This document shows, one piece after another, positions 14,416 to 22,314 of a stretch of DNA of 64,000 nucleotides. Position 1 is the stretch's first letter. Each line of letters starts with the position of its first letter. Position numbers and translations under genes: made by a program. A model generated the notes under the pieces. That model was not told the origin of the DNA, searched no databases, and saw only the letters and a list, made by a program, of their open reading frames with translations. This DNA is from Methanomicrobiaceae archaeon. Lineage in GTDB: Archaea; Halobacteriota; Methanomicrobia; Methanomicrobiales; Methanomicrobiaceae. The DNA lies in NCBI GenBank assembly GCA_016937345.1, contig JAFGWE010000021.1, positions 1 to 64,000 on the forward strand. Reading direction: 5' to 3'.

Positions 14416-15339
14416 TCAGACCTCCGGAGTCATTGCATCAATCAATATTACGAACATGATACTGCCCAGGGGAATTATTCCGTATATAACAGCATACAAA
14501 AATATAGGACTTGAAGAACCACTTATGGACGACATGATTGATTGAAGGATTATAAGAAACAGAGTTCCGGCAACAAGTGCAGTTACATATGATTCAGAAA
14601 TAAGCCCCAGAGTTTCAAGGAATGTTTTCTGTTCAAGTCTGTTTTCCCGTGTGTATTGCTCGGATTTGTTCCGAAAGTATTCAGTGAGATTGCTTCCGCT
14701 TGAAATACTTGCAACAGCACCCTGCAAAAAATCTCTCATTCTGTTGCTTGGAGTATATTGTCCGGCAGTTCTCAGGGCATCCAGCAGATCTTTTCCAAAT
14801 ATATCTACTTCTCTTGTAATATATCTGGCTTCAACAGCACTCTCTCCATAGATCTCACTTTCTCCAAGAAGCCTGAAAACCTCAGCCGGAGTTATTCCTG
14901 CGGTGGACATTGCCGTTATGTAATTAATTGCATAGGGAAGTGTGGCATCAATATTTCTTTTTCTCTCACCTGCAAGAATACCCGGATAAATGAGAAAAGC
15001 AGCATAAGTCATTCCTCCAAAAAACAGAAAAGATATTATGATGAACAATATTGTTCCAATTATCATGCTGTATCTTGTTAATTCAGAGAAGAGATCTGGG
15101 AGATTTCCTCGGTATACAATGATCTCCGGAATTCTTAGAAGAAATGTTATAATTCCAATCATCAATGCCATTAGAATTCCGACAAGAAATGAACTTATGA
15201 ATGCAGTTGAAAGATAGGTTTCAAATGAAATTTTCATCCTGGCCCTGAGCATGTCATTTCTCAGAGTACTATAATCATCCCTCTTTTTTTGTATCCTTTC
15301 TCCGAGTATATTGAAGCAGAAGCGCTCATAACTATTCAT
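14416..15339 (-). CDS. Type IV pilus/Tad-type membrane platform protein (first GspF-domain protein)
   Basis: A 307-residue GspF-family protein with membrane segments near residues 47-70, 90-120, 238-262 and 275-300, and the domain core at about 130-225 (TLPYAINYITAMSTAGITPAEVFRLL is the region; ISSGSNLTEYF). Its start overlaps the end of the ATPase gene by eight bases, so it is coupled to it. It is clearly related to, but distinct from, the downstream 338-residue protein, which suggests a heterodimeric platform. Confidence 0.85.
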   Translation of the reverse strand: MNSYERFCFNILGERIQKKRDDYSTLRNDMLRARMKISFETYLSTAFISSFLVGILMALMIGIITFLLRIPEIIVYRGNLPDLFSELTRYSMIIGTILFIIISFLFFGGMTYAAFLIYPGILAGERKRNIDATLPYAINYITAMSTAGITPAEVFRLLGESEIYGESAVEARYITREVDIFGKDLLDALRTAGQYTPSNRMRDFLQGAVASISSGSNLTEYFRNKSEQYTRENRLEQKTFLETLGLISESYVTALVAGTLFLIILQSIMSSISGSSSPIFLYAVIYGIIPLGSIMFVILIDAMTPEV

Positions 15340-18300
15340 ACAAATCCTCTCTTACAAGCTTTATCACAGCCTCCGGATCACGATAGTAGGACATAAGAAC
15401 CTTTCCAACGTCTTTGTAATTTCTAAGCTTTTTAATCCTCATCCATTCAAGAATCTCCTGGCGGCGTTTTAGTTCCTCAACCATTCTGGCTTCATCCCAC
15501 CCGCGTGATTCCATTATATCTTCAAGGATGTATGATTTTCCTGAGTATCGTATTTCGTCAGTTGCCTGGTTCCATTTGAAGACTTCATTTGTGATGAGCT
15601 CTCTGGTTCTTGGATCAATGTCAAGTATCTCAATTAACTGCTTATTTCGTCTGGTTCTTTGCCCTCCAATTCTGACCTGAACCTGTACGCTTATGAGATC
15701 AAGTGAACTTAGCATATTTCTGGGAACATTTAATGGCGGATTTTCGATACGGTGAACTACACTTGCAACCGAGTCCGCATGCATTGTTGCATATGTCACA
15801 TGGCCTGTGCTCATTGCCTGGAAAAGTGTCTGTGCCTCAGCGCCTCTTACTTCACCAACCAGTATATACTCGGGTCTCTGACGGAGTGCTGCTCTCAGAA
15901 GTTCGTACATATCAATTGAGCCTTTTCCATCCTTGTCAAATGATTCCCTTGTGGTACTTGGAATCCAGTTTTGATGAGGCAGTTTTAACTCCCTTGTATC
16001 CTCAAGTGTTACAATTTTTGCCAGCGGAGGGATGAAGAGGGATATTGCATTAAGAGAGGTTGTCTTTCCTGATGCTGTTCCTCCTGCAAATATACAGGAT
16101 TTGCCGGCTTCGACAGCAAGCCATATGTAGGCAACTGAAAGGGGTGAGAAAGTACCCCATTCTATTAGATCAGTTGGTGATATTGGCTCGTCTTTGAATT
16201 TTCTTATTGTAAATGTTGAACCATGTGCTGTAACTTCGGTTCCAAGTGTCATCTGTATACGTGATCCATCTGACATAGTTGCATCAAGCATCGGTTCTGC
16301 AATTGAAATGTATTTTCCTGCCTTTTGAGCAAGCTTGGTCACAAAGGAATCAAGTATTTTATAATCCTTGTAAAAAATATTTGTCTGAAGTGATTCATAG
16401 TTTGTGTGAAAAACAAATAACGGGGTGTTCAGACCGTCACATGATATATCCTCGATATATTTGTCATGCATAATCGGGTCAATAAGACCGTTTCCTAAAA
16501 ATTCCTTGTTAATGTGATATATTATCTTGGCTCTTTCTGCCGGACTGAGTTTGAGCCCGTAATCTGCAATAATTTCATTTACTGAATCTTTCAGAATTTC
16601 TGTTGCTTTATCTTTTGTCAGATCCTTTGTATTTATATCAAGGGTCTCAAAAAGGCGTTGTTCTATTTCAGAAAGGAGTTTATTTTCGGCATCGTTTAAA
16701 ACAGGTTCAATAATCTTGTATATATATTCATTTGTATTTTTATCATATACAATTCTTATATATGCATAAGGTTCATTAACCGGGTATAATTCAATCTCTT
16801 CTATACCTTCAGGCTCTTTAAATGATAGATCTACAACCGGTCCGTGAATCGAAGGATTATATTCGAATCTGTCTCTTTTTTCTGCTTTGAAAAGATCAAA
16901 TAATTTGGATTTTTCTTTCTTCTTTGTTTCTGACAGATCAAGTTCAGTTATCTTTTCAAGATCTAAAGGAGGAAAATGTTCAGAGTATATTTTATCAATC
17001 TTTGAGATTGTTTCATCCAGATCTTCGGGCAGAAGCTCTTTTTTAAAGGATTTGACACTGAACTCCTCTATCTTAAAAGTAGCGCCTTCTGGCAAAACCA
17101 GCCCGGAATATCCCTTCTCGATTTCGTTAACTGAAATTAAACCTGCTTTTGCCTCATCGATCTCGGAATCATTTTTGGACCATTTGGTTTTTTTTGCTGA
17201 ATAAAGGGTTTCTCTTTTGGCATTATCTTCTTCTTTCTGTATTATTTCTTTATTTTGGTTAGAATCTTTTTCCGACCATCTGGTTTTATTTGCTATATAC
17301 TTTTTTGAAATTTTATTCTCTTCATCATTCTCAGAGCTTTTATCTCTTAGATTTATTTCTCCCTGATTATTTTTATTTTCTATAGATTTTTCCTTTTCAG
17401 GTATATTCTGCTGAGAAAATGACTCTTTATTGCTGTCTTTCTTATTAGTCTCATAACCATTTACTATGCTTTCTTCTATTATGATTTCATTAACCGGCTC
17501 TTTAAGATTTTTTAAAGAATCCGGTTTTTCTTCTAAAAATTCCTTTGAACTCTCTTTTGGAACATTTTCTAAATCTGTGTATATTGGTTCTTTTTCATTT
17601 TTTGTATTTTTCTCTGCATTTTTAATTTTTTCAAGAATTGTCTCAAGCTCTGAGAAAGATTTTTTGGATTTTGCCTCTGAAGTTTTTAATAAATATTCGG
17701 TATCAATTTTATCATGTCCGGATTTATGAGTAATTATTTCTCCGTTTGTTTCTTCAAAAGGTTTAAAGGATTTATCTTCTGATTTTTTCTCTTCTTTTTT
17801 GATATTTATTATCTCTTCTGCTTTTTGAATTCTGTCAAAAATTTTATTTATATCGGATGTTTCTTTTCGCTCTTTTTTTGAATCATTAGCAGAAACATAT
17901 GAATTTTGATCTGATGTTTTTAAAACATCTATTTCTTTTGAGCTTATTAATGGTTCGAATTCATTAATTTTTGTATTATTTTCAGTTACCACGTCTTTCT
18001 CATCTTTTAAGTATAGTTCAGATCCTGATTTTTGTTTTTTAATTTCTTCAATGATTTTTTCAAGTTCTGACTTTGGTTTTTGCAATTCCGATTTGTTGTA
18101 ATCCTGATCTATTTCAGGATAAAATGTTTTTTTTATGGAATCCTGGTTATCAGAATCTTCTTTTTGTGTTTGAATTTTTTTGATAAGTTCTGAGAGCTCC
18201 TTCTGCCTGGAAGTATTCATTTCGTCCTGTGGAAAAAAGTCCGGAGCGCTTTCTGTCTCATTTCTATCATTGTTAAAAGGAGAATTAATTTTATCTGTAT

Positions 18301-18370
18301 ATTTTACAGTTTCTTTCTTTTTTCTTCTAAAAAACCTGAAAAACCCCTTATTGCCTTTATTGTTTGTCAA
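15332..18370 (-). CDS. Secretion/pilus assembly ATPase (GspE/FlaI superfamily) with long charged N-terminal extension
   Basis: A 1012-residue hexameric-type ATPase that powers pilin or filament assembly. The catalytic half runs from about residue 520. GGTASGKT (763-770) is Walker A, LEDTREL (789-795) the Asp box, ILVGEVRG (836-843) Walker B and ATMHADS (861-867) the His box. These are all intact. The first ~500 residues are unlike the family (usual length 500-600): Lys/Glu/Ser-rich, likely disordered, with four copies of a short helical motif around 57-72, 100-118, 172-187 and 239-255 and a doubled TRWS/TKWS motif (363-366, 395-398). The gene sits between the unknown 226-residue gene and two GspF genes. 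A role in pilus or secretion is well supported; the extension's role is unknown. Confidence 0.9.
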   Translation of the reverse strand: MTNNKGNKGFFRFFRRKKKETVKYTDKINSPFNNDRNETESAPDFFPQDEMNTSRQKELSELIKKIQTQKEDSDNQDSIKKTFYPEIDQDYNKSELQKPKSELEKIIEEIKKQKSGSELYLKDEKDVVTENNTKINEFEPLISSKEIDVLKTSDQNSYVSANDSKKERKETSDINKIFDRIQKAEEIINIKKEEKKSEDKSFKPFEETNGEIITHKSGHDKIDTEYLLKTSEAKSKKSFSELETILEKIKNAEKNTKNEKEPIYTDLENVPKESSKEFLEEKPDSLKNLKEPVNEIIIEESIVNGYETNKKDSNKESFSQQNIPEKEKSIENKNNQGEINLRDKSSENDEENKISKKYIANKTRWSEKDSNQNKEIIQKEEDNAKRETLYSAKKTKWSKNDSEIDEAKAGLISVNEIEKGYSGLVLPEGATFKIEEFSVKSFKKELLPEDLDETISKIDKIYSEHFPPLDLEKITELDLSETKKKEKSKLFDLFKAEKRDRFEYNPSIHGPVVDLSFKEPEGIEEIELYPVNEPYAYIRIVYDKNTNEYIYKIIEPVLNDAENKLLSEIEQRLFETLDINTKDLTKDKATEILKDSVNEIIADYGLKLSPAERAKIIYHINKEFLGNGLIDPIMHDKYIEDISCDGLNTPLFVFHTNYESLQTNIFYKDYKILDSFVTKLAQKAGKYISIAEPMLDATMSDGSRIQMTLGTEVTAHGSTFTIRKFKDEPISPTDLIEWGTFSPLSVAYIWLAVEAGKSCIFAGGTASGKTTSLNAISLFIPPLAKIVTLEDTRELKLPHQNWIPSTTRESFDKDGKGSIDMYELLRAALRQRPEYILVGEVRGAEAQTLFQAMSTGHVTYATMHADSVASVVHRIENPPLNVPRNMLSSLDLISVQVQVRIGGQRTRRNKQLIEILDIDPRTRELITNEVFKWNQATDEIRYSGKSYILEDIMESRGWDEARMVEELKRRQEILEWMRIKKLRNYKDVGKVLMSYYRDPEAVIKLVREDLYE

Positions 18371-19203: not shown

Positions 19204-19995
19204 ATGATCGAAGTGCTTTTTATTTCTTCAGTAGCGATAATAATTACACTGATATATGCATCTCTACTTGATTTGAAGGAAAGGCGTGTTCCCTTTAAAA
19301 CCTGGTATCCTATGCTTCTTATAGGAATTCCACTGGCATTATGGGTTTATGCAACTTTTTTGTTAAGTAATTCAAAAGCAGCATCAGGATATATTTTTCT
19401 GGTTGTAATTTTCTGTGCTATTTTTTATTTTTCTTCAGCCTATCTTCATCTCTTTGGGGGTGCTGATGCATGGGCCTTTATTTTTATCACAGCGCTTGTC
19501 CCTCTGTATCCTCTGGAGCCGTTGTGGGGTTATCCTGCAATAGCATTCTTCCCTTTATCTGTTCTCATTAATGCAGTTATTTTGAATATTGCAGCACCTG
19601 TAGGAATTTTCATTTATAATATAGTGAAGGGTAACAGAGCTCCAATTTTTTATATGATTGTGGGATTTCCCGTTGATGGAAAAAAGATAACAGATTCTTT
19701 TGGCTTTATAATGGAGGATTTTGAGGAGACTGAGGATGGGATAAAAAGAAAGTTTATCTCATTTAATGCTTCCCTAAAAAGAATGATCTCAGGAAGACGC
19801 CGGATGTATACTCAGGACCTAAAAAAATATCCCGGGGAGTACAAGAAAGAACTGGATTTATATGCCCGTTCAGGAAAGATCTGGATCTCTTTTGGTGTCC
19901 CTTTTATAATACCAATAACAGCAGGGTTTATATCTGCGCTTCTTTTAGGAGATATAATTTATGAAATACTCAAAATAGTTATGGGAGTGATTTGA
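19204..19995 (+). CDS. Prepilin peptidase, archaeal A24 family (FlaK/EppA-like)
   Basis: A 263-residue integral membrane aspartic protease that removes class III signal peptides from archaeal pilins or archaellins. The two catalytic aspartates are visible: D23 in [10 protein letters not shown] and D88 in GGADAW, the GxGD-type motif with a Gly-Gly-Ala-Asp form. About six hydrophobic segments are present, with a cytoplasmic charged loop near residues 155-225. It is divergent from the pilus-type operon (132-bp gap), strongly suggesting it processes that system's pilins. hisI begins one base after its stop. Confidence 0.88.
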
Positions 19996-20391: not shown

Positions 20392-22314
20392 GTGATACTT
20401 ATACCTGATACTAGCGTCGTCATAGACGGACGCATCACCTCGATGATACAGGAATCGGGGGAATATAGAGGGGCCACAATAATTGTTCCTGAGGCCGTAA
20501 TAGCAGAACTTGAAGCACAGGCAAACCAGGGGCGTGAAATAGGTTTTAGCGGCCTTACAGAGCTTCAGGAACTCTCCAAGCTTGCAGAAGAGGGAGTAAT
20601 TACGATAAAATATGTCGGTTCAAGACCAAGTCTTGATCAGGTCAAACTTGCAAGTGGCGGGGAGATTGATGCACTGATAAGAAATGTTGCACTGGATTAT
20701 GATAATGCAAAATTCATAACAAGTGATGTGGTTCAGTCAGAAGTTGCCCGGGCAAAAGGTCTGGATGTCCTTTATTTAAAGCCACAGATTGGTGAATTTT
20801 CGCCGCTCAAAATAGATAATTATTTTGAGGAAAACACCCTTTCAGTCTTTTTAAAGGAGCGCGCAAGACCCGTTGCAAGGCAGGGAACATTAAAGGAAAG
20901 CAGGAATGTAATTCTCTCAGAAGATCCTATCTCCGAGTATGAATTAAGACACATAGCCCAGGAGATACTTGAACGTGCAAAACGTGATCCTGATGGATTT
21001 ATCGAGCTTGAAAAGCGTGGAATTACAATTGTTCAGATAGGTTCAATGAGAATATCAATAGCAAGAAGACCTTTTTCAGACGGAATGGAGATTACTGCTG
21101 TAAGGCCTATTGCTGACAGATTAATTGATGATTACAATAAATCAGCTGTCCTGAAAAAGCGGCTTCTTGAAAGCAGAAGAGGCCTTATTATCACAGGGAC
21201 ACCCGGGACTGGAAAGACAACTCTTGCACAGAGTATTGCAATATTCCTTTCTGATAATCAATACTCAGTAAAAACAATGGAGGCACCGCGTGATATTCAG
21301 GTTCCTGATAATATTACCCAGTATACTGCCCTTGAGGGCAGTATGGAGAATACAGCAGAAGTGATGCTACTTATGCGGCCTGATTTTGTGATATTTGATG
21401 AACTCAGGAAGAGCTCAGATTTCAGTGTATTTTCTGATATGCGCCTTGCAGGTATTGGTATGGTTGGAGTGGTTCATGCAAATGATGCCCATGATGCACT
21501 TCAGAGATTTTTGGGAAGAACTGAATTTGGTGTGCTGCCGCAGATTATTGATACAATTGTTCTTGTAAAAGACGGAGATATTTCAAAGATATATGATATT
21601 AACTTTGATTTCAAGGTTCCTGAAAGCATACCTGATGAGGATGATGAGCTCTCTGCAAGGCCTGTAGTCTCTGTTGTAAACAATCAAACCGGAGAGGTTG
21701 AATCTGAAATATTCCGCTATGACGGAGAACCGATAATCATTAAGTTTCCACTTACAGCAGAGACACCTGTACCTGAAATTCAGACAATAAGCATTCCTGA
21801 AGAGGATATCTCATTAAAACTTGTTGAAAGAGAAATTCAAAGAGAGATAGGCAGATTTACAGACGGTTCTGTTGAAGTGAAAATGCAGAATGAGAATAAG
21901 GCTGTTGTGTATATTGATGATAAGGATGTCCCTGCTGCAATTGGTAAGGGTGGAAAGAATGTTGCTGCAATTGTAAACAAACTGAGCATTGGAATTGATA
22001 TCCGCCCAAGGACGGAGCTTCCACAAACCGGTTTAAAAGAACCAGTCCTGGAGGCTTCTTCATCTCTTGAACCTGAGCCACCAGCAGTCTCTTCCGGCAA
22101 TGGTATTGAAATAAAAGTAGACAAGAAGTTCCTTTCAATCTCAGCGAAAGAGCATAAAGGAAAAATTGTTGACGTTTTTGGAGGAAAAGAGTATCTCTTC
22201 ACGGCAACAGTTAATGAACAGGGAGAGATTCACATGTCCAAAAATAATAGTATTGCAATGGAGATGATCCGCCGTTATAATGACGGAGAGGAGATCAGAC
22301 TCCGGCCAGTATAA
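20392..22314 (+). CDS. PINA: PIN-domain/ATPase/KH-like protein
   Basis: A 640-residue archaeal PINA. Residues 1-125 form a PIN domain (PDTSVVIDGRIT; acidic residues in AELEAQ and GGEIDALI; TSDVVQSEVA). Residues about 225-430 are a VirB11/PilT-like ATPase with GTPGTGKTT around 268-276 and FVIFDELRKSSDF. The C-terminal part has a KH-like AAIGKGGKNVAAIV element and a TRAM-like end. In Sulfolobus, PINA acts in Holliday junction migration with Hjc/Hjm; that link is known for the family, not shown here. It starts at GTG 20392 after a GGGAGG site, with leuS downstream. Confidence 0.92.
   Translation: MILIPDTSVVIDGRITSMIQESGEYRGATIIVPEAVIAELEAQANQGREIGFSGLTELQELSKLAEEGVITIKYVGSRPSLDQVKLASGGEIDALIRNVALDYDNAKFITSDVVQSEVARAKGLDVLYLKPQIGEFSPLKIDNYFEENTLSVFLKERARPVARQGTLKESRNVILSEDPISEYELRHIAQEILERAKRDPDGFIELEKRGITIVQIGSMRISIARRPFSDGMEITAVRPIADRLIDDYNKSAVLKKRLLESRRGLIITGTPGTGKTTLAQSIAIFLSDNQYSVKTMEAPRDIQVPDNITQYTALEGSMENTAEVMLLMRPDFVIFDELRKSSDFSVFSDMRLAGIGMVGVVHANDAHDALQRFLGRTEFGVLPQIIDTIVLVKDGDISKIYDINFDFKVPESIPDEDDELSARPVVSVVNNQTGEVESEIFRYDGEPIIIKFPLTAETPVPEIQTISIPEEDISLKLVEREIQREIGRFTDGSVEVKMQNENKAVVYIDDKDVPAAIGKGGKNVAAIVNKLSIGIDIRPRTELPQTGLKEPVLEASSSLEPEPPAVSSGNGIEIKVDKKFLSISAKEHKGKIVDVFGGKEYLFTATVNEQGEIHMSKNNSIAMEMIRRYNDGEEIRLRPV

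Follow-up and report, generated by a model that had tools for sequence, protein, structure and literature searches.

A repeated amphipathic helix on the disordered arm of a Methanomicrobiales type IV pilus motor ATPase and its possible connection to a MinD-family positioning module

The locus examined here raises the question of why the motor ATPase of an archaeal pilus system should carry, ahead of its folded domains, a long disordered extension set with repeats of one short helix. The gene lies at positions 15332-18370 of a 64,000-nucleotide stretch of DNA from a Methanomicrobiaceae archaeon (GCA_016937345.1, contig JAFGWE010000021.1), hereafter the window, and an earlier note on this DNA had proposed that the extension is a tethering or multivalent docking arm. 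We found that the helix array is real, that it is specific to one orthologue group, and that its copies are conserved above the linkers between them in most clades. We give an even chance to the reading that the array forms a multivalent docking arm, which would link the pilus motor by direct binding to a MinD-dependent positioning module. The motor family and disordered regions on such motors are already known. In the open-access literature, at the level of titles and abstracts, no description was found of the repeated helix, its restriction to the orthologues, its presence on the upstream operon protein (called P4 here), or its co-variation with a MinD-family gene.

The open reading frame fills the interval exactly and runs on the minus strand, which the earlier note had left unstated; stop codons crowd the plus strand. 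Translation starts at a TTG at 18370 with GGAG upstream and gives a product of 1012 residues, and the N-termini of same-genus relatives align with that of the window ATPase. The operon is ordered P4, ATPase, TadB-like platform protein and TadC-like platform protein. The first 500 residues contain 17.4% lysine and 15.2% glutamate, as expected from their earlier description as Lys/Glu-rich and likely disordered. In the AlphaFold2 model, built from an alignment of 66 sequences that included the short-tailed, array-less relative L076 (counted later as G034), the predicted local distance difference test score (pLDDT) was below 50 at residues 1-53, 70-103, 112-175, 191-240, 252-451 and 465-498. Up to residue 410 the only tail helices were at 51-77 (with a short one at 79-82), 101-112, 168-193 and 239-254. 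These coincide with the four motif copies that had been placed by eye at 57-72, 100-118, 172-187 and 239-255, and the rest of residues 1-409 was predicted to be disordered. Two further helices, at 417-420 and 448-465, were predicted before residue 498. It was also noted that a short KxTxWS-like motif is doubled on the arm within the genus of the window; the strict form K-x-[TSA]-x-W-S was found in eight of 73 sequences and looser forms in more.

To assess the array statistically, the test pattern was taken from the core of the consensus in the earlier note, with aliphatic residue classes, and was applied to relatives outside that note. These came from 80 loci found in a genome scan, which belong to Methanomicrobiales wherever they are classed more finely than Euryarchaeota. 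From the 81 sequences (80 loci and the window), those without the anchor pattern (13) and the 5'-open loci were removed, leaving 63 tails. These held 145 matches compared to 12.9 +/- 3.4 in shuffled tails (maximum of 27 in 1000 shuffles), and 46 of the 63 were individually enriched (shuffle test; p < 0.05). Among the 35 possible placements of four hydrophobic residues in eight, the spacing phi-x-x-phi-phi-x-x-phi (positions 0, 3, 4 and 7) was by far the most enriched in 44 non-redundant Methanomicrobiales tails, with 114 matches against 10.6 expected; the set behind this comparison was 73 sequences (72 loci and the window), omitting seven 5'-open loci and L076. No enrichment was seen in 20 loci outside the class (6 matches; 8.8 expected) or in the folded cores of the 44 proteins (125; 134 expected). 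The tails of eight paralogues of a second long-tailed type (C14) were tried as array carriers and rejected, being alike by eye but carrying 2 matches where 1.9 were expected. Phenylalanine was excluded from the inner positions in the 63-tail count, the residue preferences and the four-clade column identities; it was allowed there in the P4, TadC, like-with-like conservation, copy-number, outgroup, paralogue, core and 54-genome tests.

The number of copies ranged from zero to seven among the 44 tails, mostly one to four. The distance between copies had a median of 47 residues (quartiles 38-71), in agreement with the 40-70 residues read from the window alone. Aspartate or serine is preferred just ahead of the helix, lysine or arginine at positions 5 and 6, and glycine or lysine after it, while position 1 is occupied by serine (27%), arginine (16%) or aspartate (11%). 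The hydrophobic core of the proposed consensus L-x-x-I-I-x-x-I-K-K-x-K holds in relatives, but its trailing K-K-x-K is not general.

We then compared the conservation of copies and linkers. In four clades the motif columns were 72-73% identical with 0-6% gaps, compared to 38-51% identity and 19-22% gaps in the linkers. Because hydrophobic columns are conserved in any case, copies and linkers were also compared like with like. Hydrophobic copy positions exceeded hydrophobic linker columns in all six clades examined (p from 0/5000 draws to 0.06, the weakest result being that of Methanoculleus, at p 0.06), and polar copy positions exceeded polar linker columns in four of the six, the OWC clade falling short at p 0.14. 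The copies therefore hold their place while the linkers vary in most clades, as had been anticipated; in the family of the window itself this is true of the hydrophobic positions only.

The motif was next sought in the other operon proteins. It was found within the first 20 residues of P4 in 31 of 40 relatives (4.5 in shuffled sequences) and within the first 22 residues of TadC in 28 of 61 (3.1 in shuffled sequences), the latter being those of the 73 loci with a TadC match and a defined start. N-terminal amphipathic helices are common, and the P4, TadC and MinD tests were devised after the data had been seen. The earlier note had pointed to a related helix, KEIIEKIEERNK, at the N-terminus of the last GspF protein, the 338-residue TadC-like platform protein. 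This juxtamembrane helix is present, but it lacks the first hydrophobic position, the aligned region matches the motif in none of the 61 relatives, and the TadC of the window lacks the motif; the suggested link to this platform protein through KEIIEKIEERNK is unsupported. It was separately noted that the N-terminal GIKDxFNNLLNR-like stretch of TadC is duplicated in some Methanoregula-type proteins (L050, L060, L069 and L073), and that the TadC of L035 has a KTGWSE, similar to the KxTxWS-like motif, within an extended tail.

P4 was predicted with confidence (AlphaFold2; pLDDT 86.7) as an N-terminal helix, a mixed alpha/beta domain and a C-terminal domain. The last resembles transthyretin and carboxypeptidase regulatory domains (Z up to 12.3, root-mean-square deviation 1.7 over 75 residues within 150-226), and 20 of the 40 P4 members matched the CarboxypepD_reg profile. 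In sequence and structure searches of the PDB with P4, only this C-terminal domain was matched. In a sample of 61 genomes spread evenly over the class, P4 was present in all 54 that carry the ATPase orthologue (at least 67% identity) and in none of the seven that do not. In two of the 54, G034 (L202) and G051 (L201), the P4 domain comes last in a longer protein that begins with what looks, by sequence, like a receiver-PAS module, which suggests that P4 is a signalling output domain. As the sole receptor of the motif P4 is a weakened candidate, since it persists in array-less genomes and itself bears the motif.

A different candidate receptor emerged from the neighbouring genes. In two Methanoregulaceae-type loci, L071 and L060, an ATPase of the MinD/ParA family with a CbiA P-loop domain (PF01656, E 1.9e-22 for L071:2188-2979) is encoded between P4 and the motor ATPase, and the intervening genes variously encode roadblock, V4R and receiver-PAS proteins as well. 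Beside MinD in these loci (L071:3210-3983 and L060:4683-5312) lies an unannotated protein with a small domain and a low-complexity tail, a candidate MinD adaptor. Across the 61 genomes this MinD-family protein was found in 47, all of them among the 54 with the ATPase orthologue. In 27 of these 47, by a count of coordinates, its gene and that of the motor ATPase are no more than about 10 kb apart, and in families f2 and f3 the MinD gene directly adjoins P4. In the genome of the window, it lies at C42:67367-68146, 3.4 kb past the window end and about 49 kb from the arm (L198:3355-5459), beside genes that look roadblock-like and receiver-like by eye, a cluster that we take to be reminiscent of bacterial polarity modules.

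The arm was found to vary with this gene. At least two motif matches occurred in 31 of the 47 MinD-positive genomes compared to none of the seven MinD-negative genomes, and at least one in 44 of 47 compared to four of seven; the conserved segment that follows the array was present in 47 of 47 and none of seven. The P4 N-terminal motif beside its domain was also absent from all seven, the lone match in G051 lying far upstream in the PAS-like part. Copy counts for G047 and G013, whose tails end at the locus edge, are lower bounds. In a core tree the MinD-negative sample genomes formed two lineages. A third is the clade of G002, G003 and G005 in the genus of the window, which includes Methanomicrobium mobile (a G005 stretch is identical to the M. 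mobile BP locus L006), making the source of the window a relative of Methanomicrobium; neither P4 nor a MinD-family protein was matched in these genomes, which are 74-91% complete. The tails of G002 and G005 have no motif copies, and that of G003 is cut and uninformative on the array. In all three MinD-less lineages, the array has been lost or reduced. G002, G005 and G017 still have FlaI-like genes, and the disappearance of MinD would therefore not be accounted for by loss of the archaellum. Relatives with short or array-less tails, which the earlier note had expected to speak against its proposal, do exist, but most belong to lineages that also lack a MinD-family protein, making their loss informative rather than refuting.

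Since the arm shrinks or vanishes in the MinD-less lineages, it probably helps the pilus machine to be parked or clustered in the appropriate part of the cell. In this reading the hexameric ATPase that drives a type IV pilus in Methanomicrobiales, a system that has two platform genes like those of the Tad type, would bear a disordered multivalent arm made up of its first 440 or so residues. Each copy may be a two-turn amphipathic helix that folds upon binding, and the receptor would most likely be a positioning ATPase of the MinD/ParA type or else an adaptor that acts together with such an ATPase. P4, with the same helix at its N-terminus, could be a second client or an adaptor bringing in signals. 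With several copies per subunit and presumably six arms per motor, avidity would be high, and at a selected site on the membrane the pilus machine could thereby be held, clustered or gated. A more specific form of this mechanism, in which a MinD-type ATPase grips an LD-like helix array on the motor arms and the same peptide on P4 competes or cooperates, so that one eight-residue motif on three operon proteins would serve as a multivalent docking code by which a secretion machine is placed, seems to us rather doubtful. ParA/MinD-family ATPases are described as organising cell-division sites, chemoreceptor clusters and other cargo (PMC9178275). CetZ was considered as another partner and set aside, since cetZ in Methanomicrobiales was found not to be pilus-linked (PMC9856176). 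If the docking reading is right, archaea could place pili through an avidity-based code. The reading offers a short peptide for testing, a candidate for the receptor and, in the natural losses, a set of controls, within an order-wide natural series of zero to seven copies that can be compared with MinD-family presence. The tethering or docking arm of the earlier note is thereby partly supported: it is the best-supported reading, without the platform-protein link.

Several observations weigh against a MinD-linked docking arm. In the genus and family of the window, the x-positions of the copies are conserved no more than the linkers (0.24 vs 0.24), and the P4 of the window has a weakened motif with no strict match. 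Families f1 and f4 of the sample have their MinD gene away from the ATPase. Four of the seven MinD-negative genomes retain one variant copy, and G002 and G005 retain the conserved segment without MinD; conversely, MinD, P4 and the segment are all present in clade g17, which is array-less and comprises the three MinD-positive genomes that have no copies. All seven MinD-negative sample genomes retain P4, which thus does not depend on the array. The co-variation test was prompted by the data, and as the MinD losses comprise only three events, the correlation is suggestive; the actual receptor could be encoded by some other gene that these lineages have also lost.

Among the alternatives, the one that fares best is a regulatory arm, whose motifs would bind either the N-domain of the motor itself or that of P4 and adjust the rate of ATP hydrolysis or the extension of the pilus. 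A similar role has been proposed in bacteria for CpaF, whose short disordered region is reported to be needed for full pilus activity and not for ATPase activity; truncations lowered the former while the latter persisted (PMC12019362). P4 also tracks the ATPase perfectly in the class sample and is joined to receiver/PAS-looking modules in G034 and G051. We nevertheless regard this as unlikely: P4 bears the motif itself rather than being only a receptor, spaced copies over 200 residues exceed the needs of a cis switch, and AlphaFold2 placed no copy confidently on the core (predicted template modelling score 0.40).

Homotypic clustering comes next, and is likewise improbable. Here the helices of the ATPase arm, P4 and TadC would pack together as stickers and linkers with no separate receptor, as the same hydrophobic spacing in three proteins of one operon and the variable copy number and linkers could imply. 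However, it leaves unexplained the shrinkage of the arm in genomes without the MinD-family gene, and it sits poorly with the motif-free TadC of the window; clustering would moreover be expected to keep several copies, and 13 of the 47 MinD-positive genomes have one.

Membrane tethering by amphipathic in-plane helices that keep the motor near the membrane appears to us a slim prospect. The copies are amphipathic, and several tails begin with an aromatic-basic patch; such starts occur in several relatives as well as in the window, with a net charge of +1 to +8 over the first 25 residues in seven relatives. This patch may itself be a membrane tether, and is a possible membrane-proximal anchor. 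The copies themselves average a net charge of only +0.22 per 16 residues, with 35% at or below -1, which disfavours a general membrane anchor, and eight-residue helices with four aliphatics are short for such a role. Polar positions of the copies are conserved in four of the six clades, which instead suggests a protein partner. Neutral drift, by which short helices arise by chance in a low-complexity tail, is very improbable: the linkers evolve fast and array-less orthologues exist, but the matches exceed expectation as given above while outgroups, paralogues and cores are unenriched, and hydrophobic copy positions surpass their linker counterparts in every clade tested, if weakly in Methanoculleus.

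The features of the locus are collected in the table below. The window ATPase belongs to the secretion and pilus motor superfamily T2SSE (PF00437; 118.4 bits against a cut-off of 24.9, with Walker A present). It falls short of the archaellum motor FlaI (NF058587; 419.8 bits against an equivalog cut-off of 550) and of TadA/CpaF (TIGR03819; 154.4 bits against a family cut-off of 373), and scores slightly under the gathering score of 27 for each of the PilB3 profiles PF23990 and PF23989 (24.3 and 21.7 bits). Besides the window gene, its genome encodes three further motor ATPases of this type, four in all: a paralogue of 972 residues with a long tail (C14), one of 614 residues (C23), and a FlaI-like ATPase of 620 residues without a long tail (C45), which by eye lies downstream of a FlaH-like gene. 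It was noted that the C14 tail (L087) carries a PEEVIPEEVTP-type repeat and that two divergent neighbours of this gene look KaiC/RecA-like by eye. Elsewhere in the window, at 20392-22314 on the plus strand, a T2SSE-like ATPase is fused to a PIN domain and resembles the archaeal MJ1533-like family described in PMC4858521.

Table. Coordinates of the pilus motor ATPase, its parts and neighbouring genes in the window
Feature	Position	Strand	Basis or remark
Type IV pilus/Tad-type motor ATPase gene, 1012 residues	15332..18370	-	T2SSE match, residues 678-954
Disordered N-terminal arm, residues 1-409	17144..18370	-	AlphaFold2, composition, length variation and gaps among relatives
Aromatic-basic patch GFFRFFRRKKK, residues 9-19	18314..18346	-	Sequence
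Motif copy 1, LSELIKKI, residues 59-66	18173..18196	-	Helix; retained in most close relatives
Motif copy 2, LEKIIEEI, residues 103-110	18041..18064	-	Helix; missing from closest relatives
Motif copy 3, INKIFDRI, residues 174-181	17828..17851	-	Helix
Motif copy 4, LETILEKI, residues 242-249	17624..17647	-	Helix
NKTRWS, first KxTxWS-like motif, residues 361-366	17273..17290	-	
KKTKWS, second KxTxWS-like motif, residues 393-398	17177..17194	-	
Conserved segment LISVNEIEKGYSGLVLPEGATFKIEEFSV, residues 411-439	17054..17140	-	Follows array; ISVDEI...LILPKGATF
Folded N-domain and catalytic core, residues 501-1012	15335..16870	-	Walker A GGTASGKT, residues 763-770
First GspF/TadB-like platform protein, 307 residues	14416..15339	-	T2SSF
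Second GspF/TadC-like platform protein, 338 residues	13395..14411	-	
P4, upstream operon protein, 226 residues	18391..19071	-	
Prepilin (A24) peptidase, divergent neighbour	19204..19995	+	PF06847 and PF01478

The array bears a likeness to several known systems. Paxillin LD motifs (LDxLLxxL) share the hydrophobic spacing 0, 3, 4 and 7, and, as proposed here, occur as four to five copies in an N-terminal region and form amphipathic helices that dock on hydrophobic patches (PMC7703752). The LD aspartate at position 1 is not a general feature of the motif here, and since this defining acidic residue is not kept, the array does not belong to the LD motifs and could at best act in their manner; the likeness is at most convergent and implies no kinship. 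P4 recalls the PATAN-receiver regulators acting on PilB1, in which a small domain is likewise tied, in some lineages, to receiver modules, and to a pilus motor gene (PMC7690835). This resemblance is by eye: no P4 matched the DUF4388/PATAN profile (PF14332) at E 0.001 in 13 genomes, in a search that detected only three of 14 control genomes, and the structure matches listed covered residues 148-226 only.

At the level of the whole system, the archaeal Clade 2 type IV pilus systems combine a euryarchaeal secretion ATPase with two tadC-like genes, as here (PMC4858521), a likeness drawn without a tree-based clade assignment. A FleN/MinD ATPase (arCOG00589), usually a stand-alone gene, is expected for these systems, and the subclade 4F ATPases of methanomicrobia have a cysteine-rich N-terminal domain, while the tail of the window ATPase contains no cysteine (PMC4858521). 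The class II CpaF/TadA motor of Caulobacter crescentus belongs to the same superfamily, works with two platform proteins and has disorder ahead of its N-domain (PMC12019362). The window ATPase has the same layout, being predicted as disordered over residues 1-498 apart from short helices, but the likeness is one of layout only; unlike the CpaF/TadA class, it scores under the TadA-family cut-off. The disordered region of CpaF spans about 79 residues compared to an arm of about 410 with a repeated helix motif here, and the CpaF authors consider its role still to be determined and speculate on protein contacts (PMC12019362). In a model of the Caulobacter Tad machine, the hexameric motor CpaF is surrounded by six dimers of the MinD-family protein CpaE (PMC13170226).

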